Below, piece by piece: positions 30,284 through 41,163 of a stretch of DNA of 64,000 nt. The notes under the pieces were generated by a model. That model ran no database searches. It was not told the origin of the DNA and was given only the letters and a program-made list of their open reading frames with translations. The position numbers and the translations under genes were made by a program. This stretch comes from Actinotalea solisilvae (GTDB lineage Bacteria > Actinomycetota > Actinomycetes > Actinomycetales > Cellulomonadaceae). The stretch is taken from assembly GCF_016464425.1 (NCBI RefSeq), contig NZ_JADDKQ010000005.1:1-64000 (forward strand), in the 5' to 3' direction. Positions within the stretch are counted from its first letter, which is position 1, and every line of letters starts with the position of its first letter.

Positions 30284-30295
30284 GATGAAACCGAT

Positions 30296-30332
30296 CCCTC
30301 CACCGGCAGGTACGTGCCGGACGATCCGTCGT
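30296..30332 (-). ncRNA. Structured leader, candidate msiK RNA motif
   Basis: On the minus strand two adjacent perfect hairpins, ACGA-CGGA-TCGT (30332-30321) and CCGGCA-CGTACC-TGCCGG (30320-30303), run into GGAGGG (30301-30296), the ribosome site for the MsiK-like gene. The msiK RNA motif is a known actinobacterial leader structure in exactly this place. I match it by position and general shape, not by a covariance model. Confidence 0.5.
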
Positions 30333-30371
30333 GAATGGGAGTTGTCAGGTGTCGTCGATGACACCGACACG

Positions 30372-37109: not shown

Positions 37110-37181
37110 GCCGCCTTAGCTCAGTGGTAGAGCACCCGCCTTGTAAGCGGACGGTCGTCGGTTCGAATCCGACAGGCGGCT
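37110..37181 (+). tRNA. tRNA-Thr (TGT)
   Basis: A full cloverleaf can be drawn: acceptor GCCGCCT pairs with AGGCGGC, D arm GCTC/GAGC, anticodon loop CTTGTAA with anticodon TGT, and T arm GTCGG-TTCGAAT-CCGAC. The 3' CCA is not encoded. It reads ACA codons, which are rare in this genome. Confidence 0.95.
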
Positions 37182-37509
37182 CCCCGACCCGGCGTCCCCC
37201 CGCGACCCGGGACCTTCGTCCTGTTCCCGGACCGTCACAGACCTGCGCCGATCGGGTGAGCGGTGGGTCCGGCGGAACGCCGTGGTTGTCCCGTTCCGTC
37301 CCGGCTCGTCGGGTGAAAAACGGCTGGCCGTCCGGGTGAACCTGCAGGTCGCAGGCCTGCCGGTGGGTCGTCCCACGCCATCCTCGTGGCACCCCTTCAA
37401 GCGGCGGCCCCCACCGCCCGATGAAGATCAGGACCGGCCACCCACCGGTCCCGCACCCCCCAGTGGGCAGCTTCCCCAGGCTGCCGTCACCCGACCGAAG
37501 GACACCCCC
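37182..37509 (+). other. 328-base gap before secreted-protein gene
   Basis: No gene is seen. The gap contains three copies of CGGGTGA (37253, 37310, 37333), an AT-rich spot GGTGAAAAACGG (37312-37323) and the palindrome CCTGCAGG (37341-37348) in a hairpin-forming region. GAAGGA (37497-37502) is the ribosome site for the gene at 37510. A long 5' leader with regulatory structure is possible, but no c-di-GMP aptamer core was found here. Confidence 0.5.
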
Positions 37510-37929
37510 ATGGCTTCTGCACGCCGCAAGTCCGCTGCCGTCGCGCTCGCCGTCATCGGCGTCGCCGGCCTCTCGCTCGCGTCCGCCGCCCAGCTCAACG
37601 TCAACTCCGCGTCGCTCGGTGCCGCGAACACCGTCGTGGCGTCCTGCCAGCCGAGCGACAACAACCCGGCCACCACGACCGACGCGATCGGCGTCGGCTT
37701 CACCAACGGCTGGAACGCGGGCGCGTACCGGACGACCGAGGTCAAGCTGACGAACGTCAACGCCGCGTGCGCCGGCCTCGCCGTCCGCGTCGCCCTGGTC
37801 GGCACGACCGGCGCGGTCCTGCACGAGTTCACCGGCACGGCCACGGCGGACACGACGACCCTCACCCTGCCCGCGGGCTCCGTGTCCTCCGCCGACGTCG
37901 TCTCGGCGTCCGTCGTCATCGCCGGCTGA
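37510..37929 (+). CDS. Small secreted two-cysteine surface protein
   Basis: This 139-residue protein has a Sec signal peptide (about 1-27: RRK, hydrophobic run, ASA-A). The mature part is about 112 residues, predicted beta-rich, and low in charge. Two cysteines, Cys46 (SLGAANTVVASC) and Cys87 (NAACAGLAVRVALV), probably form a disulfide. It ends LPAGSVSSADVVSASVVIAG. The same cysteine pattern recurs in the protein at 40747-41163 and in the C-terminal part of the signal peptidase directly downstream (37 bases). I cannot name the family. The size, location beside a SipW-type peptidase and repetition suggest a surface fibre or biofilm subunit. Confidence 0.8.
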   Translation: MASARRKSAAVALAVIGVAGLSLASAAQLNVNSASLGAANTVVASCQPSDNNPATTTDAIGVGFTNGWNAGAYRTTEVKLTNVNAACAGLAVRVALVGTTGAVLHEFTGTATADTTTLTLPAGSVSSADVVSASVVIAG

Positions 37930-37966
37930 CCGCTCCACCCGCCCGGACCTACCCGTCCCGACGTCC

Positions 37967-39370
37967 GTGGGACCCACTGGGAGCACCGAGCACGCCGGCG
38001 CAGGTCACCTGCGCCGGCTGCTCGGCCATGCCCTGACGGTCCTGTGGGTCGCGGCCGCGGTGGTCGCGGGCTGGCTGCTGTGGCCGAGCTCGCTCGGCGG
38101 CTGCACCACCCTGACGATCGTCTCGGGCCGCTCGATGGAGCCCACGTTCTACACCGGCGACCTCGTGGTCTCCCGGTGCGGGCCGGTCGAGGTCGGCGAC
38201 GTCATCACGTACTCCCCGCCGGACGTCGGCGGCGCCCGAGTGATCCACCGCATCGTCGACGGCACGGCCGACGGCTGGGTGGTCCAGGGCGACAACAACG
38301 ACTTCCTCGACCCGTGGACGCCGACCGAGGAGAACATCCTCGGCTCCGCCGTCCTGCACCTGCCCCACGTGGGCCGGTTCGCGTCGATCCTGCTCAGCCC
38401 GCTGACGTGGCTCTCGCTCCTCGTCGTGGCGCTGGCCGTGATGGTCTGGCCCGGCAAGGACCCGGCGGACCCCGACACCCCGGACGCCCCGGACGCCGAC
38501 GGCGGCTCCGGGCCGGCCACGCAGGAGCGCCCCGCACCGCGCGCCGGGGCTCTGCTCGACGGCGTCGGCGCGGCCACGCGGACCGCCCTCGGCGTCGCCC
38601 GCGCCGCCGTGCGCGCGGCGGTGGCCTCGGCGAGCCGGCGCGCGCTCGGCACCCGCCGGGGCCGACGTGCCGCCGTGGGCGCGGCCCTCGCGCTCGCCGT
38701 CGGGCTCCCGCTCGGCGCGGGCGCCGGCGTGGCGCACGCCGCGTCCCTCTCCCTGCGCGCCGCGTCGCTCGGCACGTTCTCCGCGGGCCACCCGTGCCCG
38801 ACGACGGTCCAGGCGGTCTCGTCGGCGGTGTCCGGCGGCACCTCCACCAGCGTGAGCCTGACCTTCGCCTCGGCGGCGTGCTCGGGCCGCACCGTGCGGC
38901 TCGCCGTCGTCACCGGCAGCACCGTGGTCCAGGGCACCGCCCTGGTGAGCGGCACGTCGGCCGTCGTCCCCGTGGCGCACAGCCCGCAGGCCACGACGAC
39001 GGTGGTCGCCACCGTGGACGGCTGGCACCTGCAGCCGACCTACACGCCGCCCGCCGCGCCGGCCGGCAAGCCCATCGACGTCGGCAACCCGACGACGGTC
39101 CTGCAGCCCGTCGTCTACACGACGGTGAGCCCGACCCGCTTCTGCGCCGCGATCGACGTGCAGCCGACCGCCGCACCCGCCACGTGGGCGCTCCGCGTCG
39201 ACCTCAACCAGCGCCCGTTCAACGGCGTCTCGCCCTACGCGCTCGAGCTCCCGGGCTGGCTCAAGGTGGTCGTGGGCGCCGGCGGCATCGTGCACCTCGA
39301 GCCCAACGGCTCCCACGCCTTCGAGCAGCGCTCGTTCACCCTCTGCGCGACCACGCCGCCTGCGCCCTGA
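37967..39370 (+). CDS. SipW/ER-type signal peptidase fused to a secreted domain
   Basis: This 467-residue chimera has membrane helix 1 (about 21-39). A signal peptidase I catalytic domain follows, with Ser56 in SGRSMEPTF, His94 in RVIHRIV (the ER/SipW-type Ser-His form, not Ser-Lys) and Asp109/Asp112 in QGDNND, then membrane helix 2 (about 139-161). Next is an acidic and Ala/Arg-rich linker, then what looks like a second signal peptide: RRGRR (230-234), hydrophobic 236-255, and Ala-His-Ala (256-258) before Ala259. The ~209-residue C-terminal part repeats the two-cysteine pattern (Cys277 in SLGTFSAGHPC, Cys305 in SAACSGRTVRLAVV) of the small secreted proteins. GTG start, with no clear ribosome site. 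It may cleave itself. Confidence 0.85.
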   Translation: MGPTGSTEHAGAGHLRRLLGHALTVLWVAAAVVAGWLLWPSSLGGCTTLTIVSGRSMEPTFYTGDLVVSRCGPVEVGDVITYSPPDVGGARVIHRIVDGTADGWVVQGDNNDFLDPWTPTEENILGSAVLHLPHVGRFASILLSPLTWLSLLVVALAVMVWPGKDPADPDTPDAPDADGGSGPATQERPAPRAGALLDGVGAATRTALGVARAAVRAAVASASRRALGTRRGRRAAVGAALALAVGLPLGAGAGVAHAASLSLRAASLGTFSAGHPCPTTVQAVSSAVSGGTSTSVSLTFASAACSGRTVRLAVVTGSTVVQGTALVSGTSAVVPVAHSPQATTTVVATVDGWHLQPTYTPPAAPAGKPIDVGNPTTVLQPVVYTTVSPTRFCAAIDVQPTAAPATWALRVDLNQRPFNGVSPYALELPGWLKVVVGAGGIVHLEPNGSHAFEQRSFTLCATTPPAP

Positions 39371-39380
39371 CGCCCAGGCG

Positions 39381-40343
39381 TCAGCCTCCGCTGCGCTCGT
39401 GGGCGCGGCGGTCGTCGACGCGCTCGACCGGCGTGAGCTCCGGGCGCTTGGGGCGCCGCGCGTCCCCGCTCGACCGGCCGCGGAGGCGGCGCGTCGCCCA
39501 CGGGTAGGCGTGCTCGCGGAACCACTGCGCGTCCTGCTGGAGCTGCGCGGCGCGCGGCAGCGGGGGGAGCGGCGTGAGGGGGTCGTCCCACGCGGCGTCG
39601 TCGGGCTCCAGGCCGAGCGCGACGAGCGCGGCCTGCGCGACGCGTCGGTGTCCCTCGGTGGTCAGGTGGATCCGGTCGGGTGCCCACATGCGCCAGTCAC
39701 GCAGGGAGCGCATGCCCCACACGTCCATCACGGCGGCGCCGTGCCGGCGGGCGATGGACCAGACGTGCGCGTTGAAGACGCCGACCCGCGCCCTGGTCCG
39801 CCGCACCACCGGGCTGTCCTTGGCGTCCATGCCGGTCGCGAGCAGCACGTCCGCCCCGGCGGCACGCAGGCGCACCACGGCGGCCTCGAGGGAGGCGGCG
39901 AGGGCGTCCGGGTCCACGGCGGGGCGCAGCATGTCGTTGCCGCCGCCGACGAGGCTCACGAGGTCGGGGCGGAGCTCGAGGGCGGCGGGCACCTGCTCGC
40001 GCAGGATGGGCCCGAGGAGGCGCCCGCGGATCGCGAGGTTCGCGTAGAGCAGCGGCTCGGCCAGGGCCACCGCGCCGTCGCCGGCCGCGTCACGCCCGTC
40101 CGCGCCCCGGCCGCCGTCGGCCGCGCGCTCGGCGAGGTGGACGGCGAGCAGGTCCGCCCAGCCGCGGCACGCGAGCGCCGGGTCGACCGCCGTCGTCGTC
40201 GCGGGCGGGGCGCCCCCGGGCACGTCCCACAGCCCCTCGGTGAAGGAGTCGCCGAGGGCGACGTAGCGCCGCCAGGGCGCGCGGGGAGCGTCACCCGGAA
40301 GCGGGTTCTGGTCGGAGCCGTGCGGCAAGCGGGTGAAACTCAC
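39381..40343 (-). CDS. SGNH/GDSL-family hydrolase
   Basis: This 320-residue serine esterase-like protein has block I YVALGDSFTEG (nucleophile Ser), block III GGGNDM and block V DRIHLTTEGH with the catalytic Asp and His. Relatives deacylate lipids or remove acetyl groups from polysaccharides. A GTG at 40343 is chosen because the upstream frame overlaps the riboswitch and lacks homology; CACACT seven bases upstream may be a leaderless -10. No signal peptide is apparent with this start, so it appears cytoplasmic. It sits between the two secreted-protein genes on the other strand, ten bases from the peptidase stop. Confidence 0.85.
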   Translation of the reverse strand: MSFTRLPHGSDQNPLPGDAPRAPWRRYVALGDSFTEGLWDVPGGAPPATTTAVDPALACRGWADLLAVHLAERAADGGRGADGRDAAGDGAVALAEPLLYANLAIRGRLLGPILREQVPAALELRPDLVSLVGGGNDMLRPAVDPDALAASLEAAVVRLRAAGADVLLATGMDAKDSPVVRRTRARVGVFNAHVWSIARRHGAAVMDVWGMRSLRDWRMWAPDRIHLTTEGHRRVAQAALVALGLEPDDAAWDDPLTPLPPLPRAAQLQQDAQWFREHAYPWATRRLRGRSSGDARRPKRPELTPVERVDDRRAHERSGG

Positions 40344-40442: not shown

Positions 40443-40521
40443 GGTCAGCGACAAAGGCAAACCCTCCGCGAGGTGGGGACGCAAAGCCACGGGGCCCTCG
40501 AGGTCAGCCGGGTTACCGAAC
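40443..40521 (+). promoter_or_regulatory. Cyclic-di-GMP-I (GEMM) riboswitch aptamer
   Basis: The core features of the class I c-di-GMP aptamer are present in order: AAAGGCAAACC, a stem closed by a GCGA GNRA tetraloop (40468-40471), GGGACGCAAAGCC (through 40488), a second stem region, and GCCGGGTTACCG (40507-40518). CATCCT at 40432-40437, with CTGGAC 18 bases upstream of it, may be the promoter and would start the RNA at about 40443. It precedes a 31-codon frame and then the secreted protein at 40747. c-di-GMP commonly controls surface adhesion and biofilm genes. Confidence 0.92.
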
Positions 40522-40746: not shown

Positions 40747-41163
40747 ATGGACAGCAGGACCCGGAAGGCGGCGTCGGTGGCCCTCGTGGCGCTGGCGCTG
40801 GTGGGGGTGCGCACGGCGGCCGCAGCGGGCGCCGACCAGGGCCTGGGGGCCCAGGAGATCGTGCTCGGCGCGGACGAGCTGCAGGGGTGCAGCGAGTCCG
40901 AGGTCGGGATCGACTACGACGTCGCCTACGACGCCGCACTGCAGGGATACGGGGTGAGCGCGGCCCGGCTGTCGGGGCTGGACGCGGCTTGCCAGGGACG
41001 CGACGTCGTCGTGACCCTCAGCGGACCCGGGGGGGTCCCGCTGGCCGAGGTGTCCGCAGTGGTCGGTGCGTCGGAGATGACGATCGCAGTGCCGGCGGGT
41101 TCGCCGGTGGCGGCCGAGCAGCTCACGGGGGTGAGCGTCGTGCTCGGCGACGCCGAGGTCTGA
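40747..41163 (+). CDS. Riboswitch-linked small secreted two-cysteine protein
   Basis: This 138-residue protein has a signal peptide (about 1-27, ending in an Ala run). The mature domain has two cysteines, Cys48 (VLGADELQGC) and Cys82 (DAACQGRDVVVTLSGPGG), and ends IAVPAGSPVAAEQLTGVSVVLGD. The pattern (LGA-x-C, then AAC-x-G with a V-x-V strand, then PAGS and a VSVV strand) matches the proteins at 37510 and in the peptidase tail. It is more acidic than its relative. A strong AGGAGG lies six bases before the ATG. The c-di-GMP aptamer is about 225 bases upstream in the same transcript. Confidence 0.8.
   Translation: MDSRTRKAASVALVALALVGVRTAAAAGADQGLGAQEIVLGADELQGCSESEVGIDYDVAYDAALQGYGVSAARLSGLDAACQGRDVVVTLSGPGGVPLAEVSAVVGASEMTIAVPAGSPVAAEQLTGVSVVLGDAEV

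Follow-up and report, generated by a model that had tools for sequence, protein, structure and literature searches.

The window, by which we mean the whole stretch of 64,000 nucleotides analysed here, contains a gene for a protein of 467 aa (37967..39370, + strand, GTG start), in which an ER-type signal peptidase is followed by a linker, an internal signal peptide and a passenger. The question raised by this locus is whether a signal peptidase has been joined to its own substrate, and whether it then frees that substrate by cutting the very chain to which it belongs. The open reading frame with its GTG start is as an earlier note on this DNA had stated, and the fused layout proposed there is supported by the single reading frame and by comparison with relatives, in most of which the two parts are separate genes.

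The fused gene and its parts

The peptidase part (residues 1-162, 37967..38452, + strand) consists of a catalytic domain flanked by two membrane segments. A hydrophobicity scan of the complete protein places these at residues 22-38 and 141-157, and a third segment at 235-251. Residues 36-152 match the NCBIfam model TIGR02228 for archaeal/ER-type signal peptidase I with 55.3 bits, above the cutoff of 51.85, and Pfam S24 and S26 give only below-cutoff matches for the window protein. In an alignment of 17 peptidases, Ser56, the presumed nucleophile (38132..38134), His94 (38246-38248), Asp109 (38291-38293) and Asp115 (38309-38311, all on the + strand) are invariant, and Asp112 is nearly invariant. 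We take these Ser, His and Asp positions to be the catalytic residues of SipW-type enzymes. The proposed ER/SipW-type peptidase with Ser56, His94 and Asp109/112 is thus borne out, with Asp115 as a further invariant position. The equivalog model for Bacillus SipW (NF046067) gives 30.2 bits against a cutoff of 190, and we do not file the enzyme as SipW, though it may work in a SipW-like manner. Over residues 25-163 it is 84-85% identical to L031 and 84% to L032, the closest peptidase being 85% identical. Its GTG start lacks a good ribosome-binding site (duplex of -3.0 kcal/mol).

The same genome has a second TIGR02228 peptidase on contig C38, and signal peptidase matches to PF10502 on contigs C32, C3 and C29, which we take to be Lep-type. 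Two of the latter (G000:C3:52117-52512 and G000:C29:41663-42058) have identical scores on different contigs; these contigs may be duplicated or foreign, in line with the contamination estimate of 8.17%.

The linker (residues 163-229, 38453..38653, + strand) is presumed to be cytosolic and consists of an acidic peptidase tail and an Ala/Arg-rich stretch, the latter being perhaps, to judge from the alignments of the peptidases and of the junction, a former intergenic spacer. The internal signal peptide (residues 230-258, 38654..38740, + strand) is made up of RRGRR at 230-234, the hydrophobic segment at 235-251 and AHA at 256-258, followed by Ala259. The RRGRR motif and the Ala-His-Ala position given in the earlier note were verified in the translation.

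The passenger comprises two beta-rich modules on the + strand, residues 259-355 (38741..39031), supported by phmmer, hhalign and a structural model, and residues 356-467 (39032..39367), supported by phmmer and the model. The structure prediction for residues 259-467, which the earlier note had put forward as a check, is beta-rich with a mean pLDDT of 90.3 and appears to contain two domains; as to the fold, Ig-like would be a guess. Foldseek with the passenger returned no hit below 1e-3, the best being 1.8e-3 and nearly all hits Fabs, and the TM-scores of the top 50 hits as listed are 0.19-0.27. Against a small set of 76 free-standing passengers from relatives, phmmer retrieves 23 with residues 259-467 at E<1e-3 (best 3e-14), and the best values for modules 1 and 2 in this set are 2.3e-12 and 6e-10, respectively. 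An alignment of the full-length protein with passengers (A3) misplaced the passengers onto the peptidase and was not used.

The first gene of the cluster (37510..37929, + strand, start picked by homology) encodes a small secreted protein of 139 aa with an N-terminal signal peptide. The passenger had been suggested to resemble the small secreted neighbours, and this holds for module 1, which aligns with the upstream small secreted proteins with a probability of 94.5% and E 8e-8 in hhalign, where a few module rows retained signal-peptide residues. The upstream proteins align in turn with the secreted protein encoded at 40747 (probability 97.9%, E 4e-13). Both small neighbours, the window protein and the free passengers tested leave the TasA/camelysin families unmatched at E up to 1; the sole hits in those scans are unrelated and below cutoff (AA_permease, Fve, DUF2080, Ail_Lom and Pilin, E 0.03-0.14). 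On plasmids, the passenger has no match in 72,556 records.

Two RNA elements were also seen in the window. A c-di-GMP-I-GGC riboswitch (67.3 bits, 40447-40521, + strand) lies upstream of the small secreted gene at 40747-41163, and 11 of the 14 related loci that were scanned contain an aptamer of the c-di-GMP-I type. An msiK RNA match (30288-30347, - strand) is located near the start of an ORF that by eye resembles an ABC-transporter ATPase.

Relatives of the fused gene

A peptidase search of 59 genomes, the window's own included, gave matches in 24, and in several of these the sequence resembling residues 222-430 was matched separately, a short distance downstream. The neighbourhoods of 20 places from this search were examined first. 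The search was also run on 221 genomes of the family, 158 of which have a match of some strength. From the matches listed we took the strong ones, except G131 (contig edge), G105 and one of G235, together with 20 of the weaker matches, 19 of which were selected because of their long open frames. From a further set of matches, 20 were taken as well. Among the 89 distinct peptidase loci examined, only L044 and L049 have tails of more than 75 residues; L064 and L088 run off the contig end. The next gene overlaps the peptidase stop by 0-8 nt in 47 of 84 loci, starts at -31 to +100 nt in 25 and lies further off in 4, and none was called in 8, L044 among these; the genes were called by a script whose codon model had these GC-rich loci as its training set; some starts are wrong and the Arthrobacter loci are poorly called. 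Genes similar to that at 37510..37929 are found upstream of the peptidase in relatives, and secreted partner genes adjoin the peptidase as expected for a SipW-type operon. Since peptidase and passenger are separate neighbouring genes in most of the relatives examined, the best interpretation of the window gene is that two genes conserved as neighbours have been fused in it, and since most orthologues are unfused, the system works without the fusion.

Fusions of the same kind were found nine times: in the window, in L044 of the same genus, and in L161-L165, L181 and L182 of f9, another family of the order. In f9 the peptidase occurs at E up to 1e-20 in 20 of 47 genomes, at 22 places, and 20 of these were examined (G582 and the second of G277 were left out). 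Seven are fused, L184 runs off its contig and twelve are unfused; ten of the twelve share an overlap of 4 or 1 nt with the next gene, and in the other two this gene is 178 and 187 nt away. G009, which belongs to the window's genus, carries both an unfused copy at the usual location and the fused paralogue L044, which scores 47.6 bits with TIGR02228, below the cutoff, and has a long branch in the tree. This tree contains 111 peptidases and 139 columns, and 36 of its 108 inner branches are open. When ten rows including L049 are counted as fused and L184 is taken as unfused, the fused label has to change 6 times, and branches with good support force 4 of these changes; without L049 and L184 the minimum on this poorly resolved tree is 4 changes, two of which fall within f9. 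The relatives add two points to the earlier note: as a rule the two parts are encoded by separate, adjacent genes, and their fusion is found repeatedly.

Predicted release of the passenger and integrity of the reading frame

The reading that we prefer is that the gene encodes a naturally occurring polyprotein, in which an ER/SipW-type peptidase is united with an operon partner that is one of its presumed substrates, and that this polyprotein is probably cut after Ala258, plausibly by itself. The proposed topology is compatible with the two membrane segments before the linker and with RRGRR at the linker end. Sec would insert the chain so that the N terminus and the linker remain inside and the catalytic domain comes to lie outside, and the internal signal peptide would then act as a third membrane segment and export the C-terminal part. 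Cleavage after Ala258 by a signal peptidase would leave an enzyme with three membrane segments and a freed two-domain beta protein of 209 residues, which would probably be a matrix or surface component. The cut would most plausibly be made by the attached enzyme, on its own chain or on that of a neighbouring copy. In such a scheme the fusion would ensure a fixed 1:1 ratio of enzyme to substrate, a ratio that the overlapping stop and start codons of the relatives would maintain loosely.

The predicted site was evaluated with a matrix built from the signal peptides of 64 distinct free-standing passengers, some training sites of which were mis-picked by the script; its leave-one-out scores have a minimum of 2.2, a median of 21.3 and a maximum of 32.2. 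The top site of the window protein is 258|259, with a score of 18.3, whereas none of the 15,517 background positions scores above 8.7. Residues 230-258 also align with the N-terminal signal peptides of the free-standing relatives, and the internal signal peptide proposed earlier is supported on both counts. Each of the nine fused proteins has its highest-scoring matrix site where the internal signal peptide ends, and each has A-x-A there, although the presence of A-x-A at the top site is partly built into the matrix. The scores are 18.3 for the window, 7.4 for L044, 15.2, 24.2, 15.2, 24.9 and 8.7 for L161-L165, 15.3 for L181 and 25.1 for L182; compared with the background maximum, seven of the nine are clearly above, L165 is equal and L044 is below. 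Release of the passenger is likely. The model of the full-length protein has a mean pLDDT of 69.7 and is silent on the cleavage site and on the reach of the enzyme in cis, because residues 242-265 are below 50.

It is important to consider which enzyme would make the cut. The passenger could be released in trans by other signal peptidases of the cell, with the attached peptidase as a bystander for this cut, which we consider rather unlikely. The second TIGR02228 match on C38 and the PF10502 matches on C32, C3 and C29 leave room for cleavage in trans. In addition, the window site reads A|AS, with Ser at P2', and is thus without the aromatic P2' residue with which LepB cuts poorly according to the accessible part of PMC10269814, where TasA is described as processed by SipW. 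On the other hand, peptidase and passenger adjoin in most loci examined, several other fused peptidases have, by eye, an aromatic residue beside the presumed site, and for sipW-bsaA of Clostridium perfringens the accessible part of PMC7395162 states that sipW mutants had no detectable BsaA outside the cells. This close pairing and the sipW-bsaA precedent suggest cutting by the attached enzyme, and self-cleavage is possible.

Another option considered was that the internal segment remains uncut, and that the passenger stays exposed on the cell within a membrane protein of three segments. A hydrophobic segment inside a chain can indeed stay as an anchor, but A-x-A stands at the end of the segment in all nine fusions and their matrix scores are inside the leave-one-out range of 2.2 to 32.2, and we regard this outcome as improbable.

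The polyprotein reading requires that the single frame is real. Frame 1 has no stop between peptidase and passenger and is the best coding frame throughout the linker. Frame 2 is without a stop from 38439 to 38853 and frame 3 after 37927, so that one indel could not split the gene, and a frameshift of this type was ruled out. The chance of 96 stop-free codons (163-258) from the base composition alone is 0.68, and the open frame by itself therefore proves little; the case rests on the coding signal, the missing internal ribosome-binding sites and homology. The internal GTGs at codons 215, 219 and 237 form duplexes with the 16S tail of -3.5, -2.5 and -5.2 kcal/mol, the mean over sampled positions being -4.3. 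Five of six free-standing passengers have -11.0 to -14.5 kcal/mol and the sixth -5.6, and the Shine-Dalgarno duplex of the small secreted gene at 37510..37929 amounts to -6.2 kcal/mol. An independent internal start for the passenger was rejected, as the internal GTGs lack a ribosome-binding site. The junction was also aligned at the DNA level with that of four relatives, but there were too many gaps for a lost stop to be placed. A promoter scan of 37180-39450 found none, and the transcription unit is thus a presumed one.

That two ordinary genes were joined by a missed stop through a sequencing or assembly artefact, such as a wrong base at the stop codon, is highly improbable: the assembly is a single one with a contamination estimate of 8.17% and there is no close strain for comparison (nearest peptidase 85% identical), but no single indel could produce a stop in the linker, a separate passenger gene would be without a ribosome-binding site, and eight similar fusions exist in other genomes.

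Other peptidases with passengers and comparison with known systems

Across the Actinomycetota, TIGR02228 matches at E up to 1e-9 in 80 of 246 genomes, at 107 places (counted by hand). Open frames of 356 codons or more are present at 22 places, and 20 of the 22 were examined; G768 was left out and the window is counted apart. More than 100 residues follow the match in 15 of the 20, and in nine (L190, L196, L197, L200, L201, L203, L206, L207 and L208) another hydrophobic segment precedes a long domain. After this segment Laminin_G_3 is recognised in L197 and L207, and the domain search recognised no passenger domain in the other seven. The ORFs of the two LamG-bearing peptidases are L197:351-2381 (+) and L207:329-1831 (+). 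Scored as single proteins, L206 and L207 stay under the cutoff of TIGR02228. DUF5305 is above cutoff in L195 (58.6 bits), with L199, L202 and L204 alike by eye, and below the cutoff of 29 in L049 (24.6 bits). After the peptidase, the scan found no further hydrophobic segment in L194, and none was seen by eye in L198. In L171, L172, L173 and L174 the peptidase match is followed by 126-148 residues that are HPt-like by eye.

Among the 20 weaker matches of the window's own family, L149 and L152 have tails of more than 100 residues with a signal-like segment. L149 (L149:1212-2681, - strand; TIGR02228 49.9 bits, just below cutoff) has PF11999, ice-binding, with E 8e-29 behind this segment, and L152 combines its signal-like segment with a sorting-like tail, as judged by eye. 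These two are weaker cases, since the matrix, trained on another signal type, misses their presumed sites. By eye, L149 and seven of the nine proteins from the Actinomycetota survey with another hydrophobic segment have an aromatic residue 1-2 places after the presumed cut. It may be, and we suggest it tentatively and with somewhat less than even confidence, that these proteins form a recurrent class in the Actinomycetota, in which ER-type peptidases repeatedly acquire whatever secreted passenger is available (two-module beta, ice-binding, LamG lectin-like or sorting-signal-like), placed after an internal signal peptide, and release it through cleavage of the chain to which they belong.

If the proposed reading is true, the gene is a natural construct for testing the cis action of a signal peptidase and an example of how a protease and its substrate have been fused repeatedly, and it points to a SipW-like secretion system in actinobacteria with passengers that match no described family. 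In the open-access literature, to the extent that it was accessible, no description of a signal peptidase carrying its own passenger was found, which is weak evidence of absence as most subscription journals lie outside this scope.

Several known systems share parts of the arrangement. FbcH, the cytochrome b/c1 of Bradyrhizobium, is a membrane polyprotein in which signal peptidase cuts at an internal signal peptide; unlike in the window gene, neither of its parts is the peptidase. LepB of E. coli is a self-cleaving signal peptidase, but its cut falls within the enzyme, whereas that in the window protein would free a separate folded passenger. The peptidases with DUF5305 (L195, L049) likewise continue, beyond another hydrophobic segment, into a long C-terminal part, yet their C-terminal domain is unrelated, and L195 has an extra hydrophobic segment near the C terminus. 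In tapA-sipW-tasA of Bacillus the gene order is small secreted gene, peptidase, secreted gene, and the window cluster shares this order. Unlike TasA, the window passenger matches no described family above cutoff. Both in tapA-sipW-tasA and in sipW-bsaA an ER-type peptidase is encoded with secreted matrix substrates, according to the accessible part of PMC7395162, and the window gene resembles them in this respect; peptidase and substrate are separate proteins there, whereas in the window the peptidase and its presumed substrate are parts of one chain.
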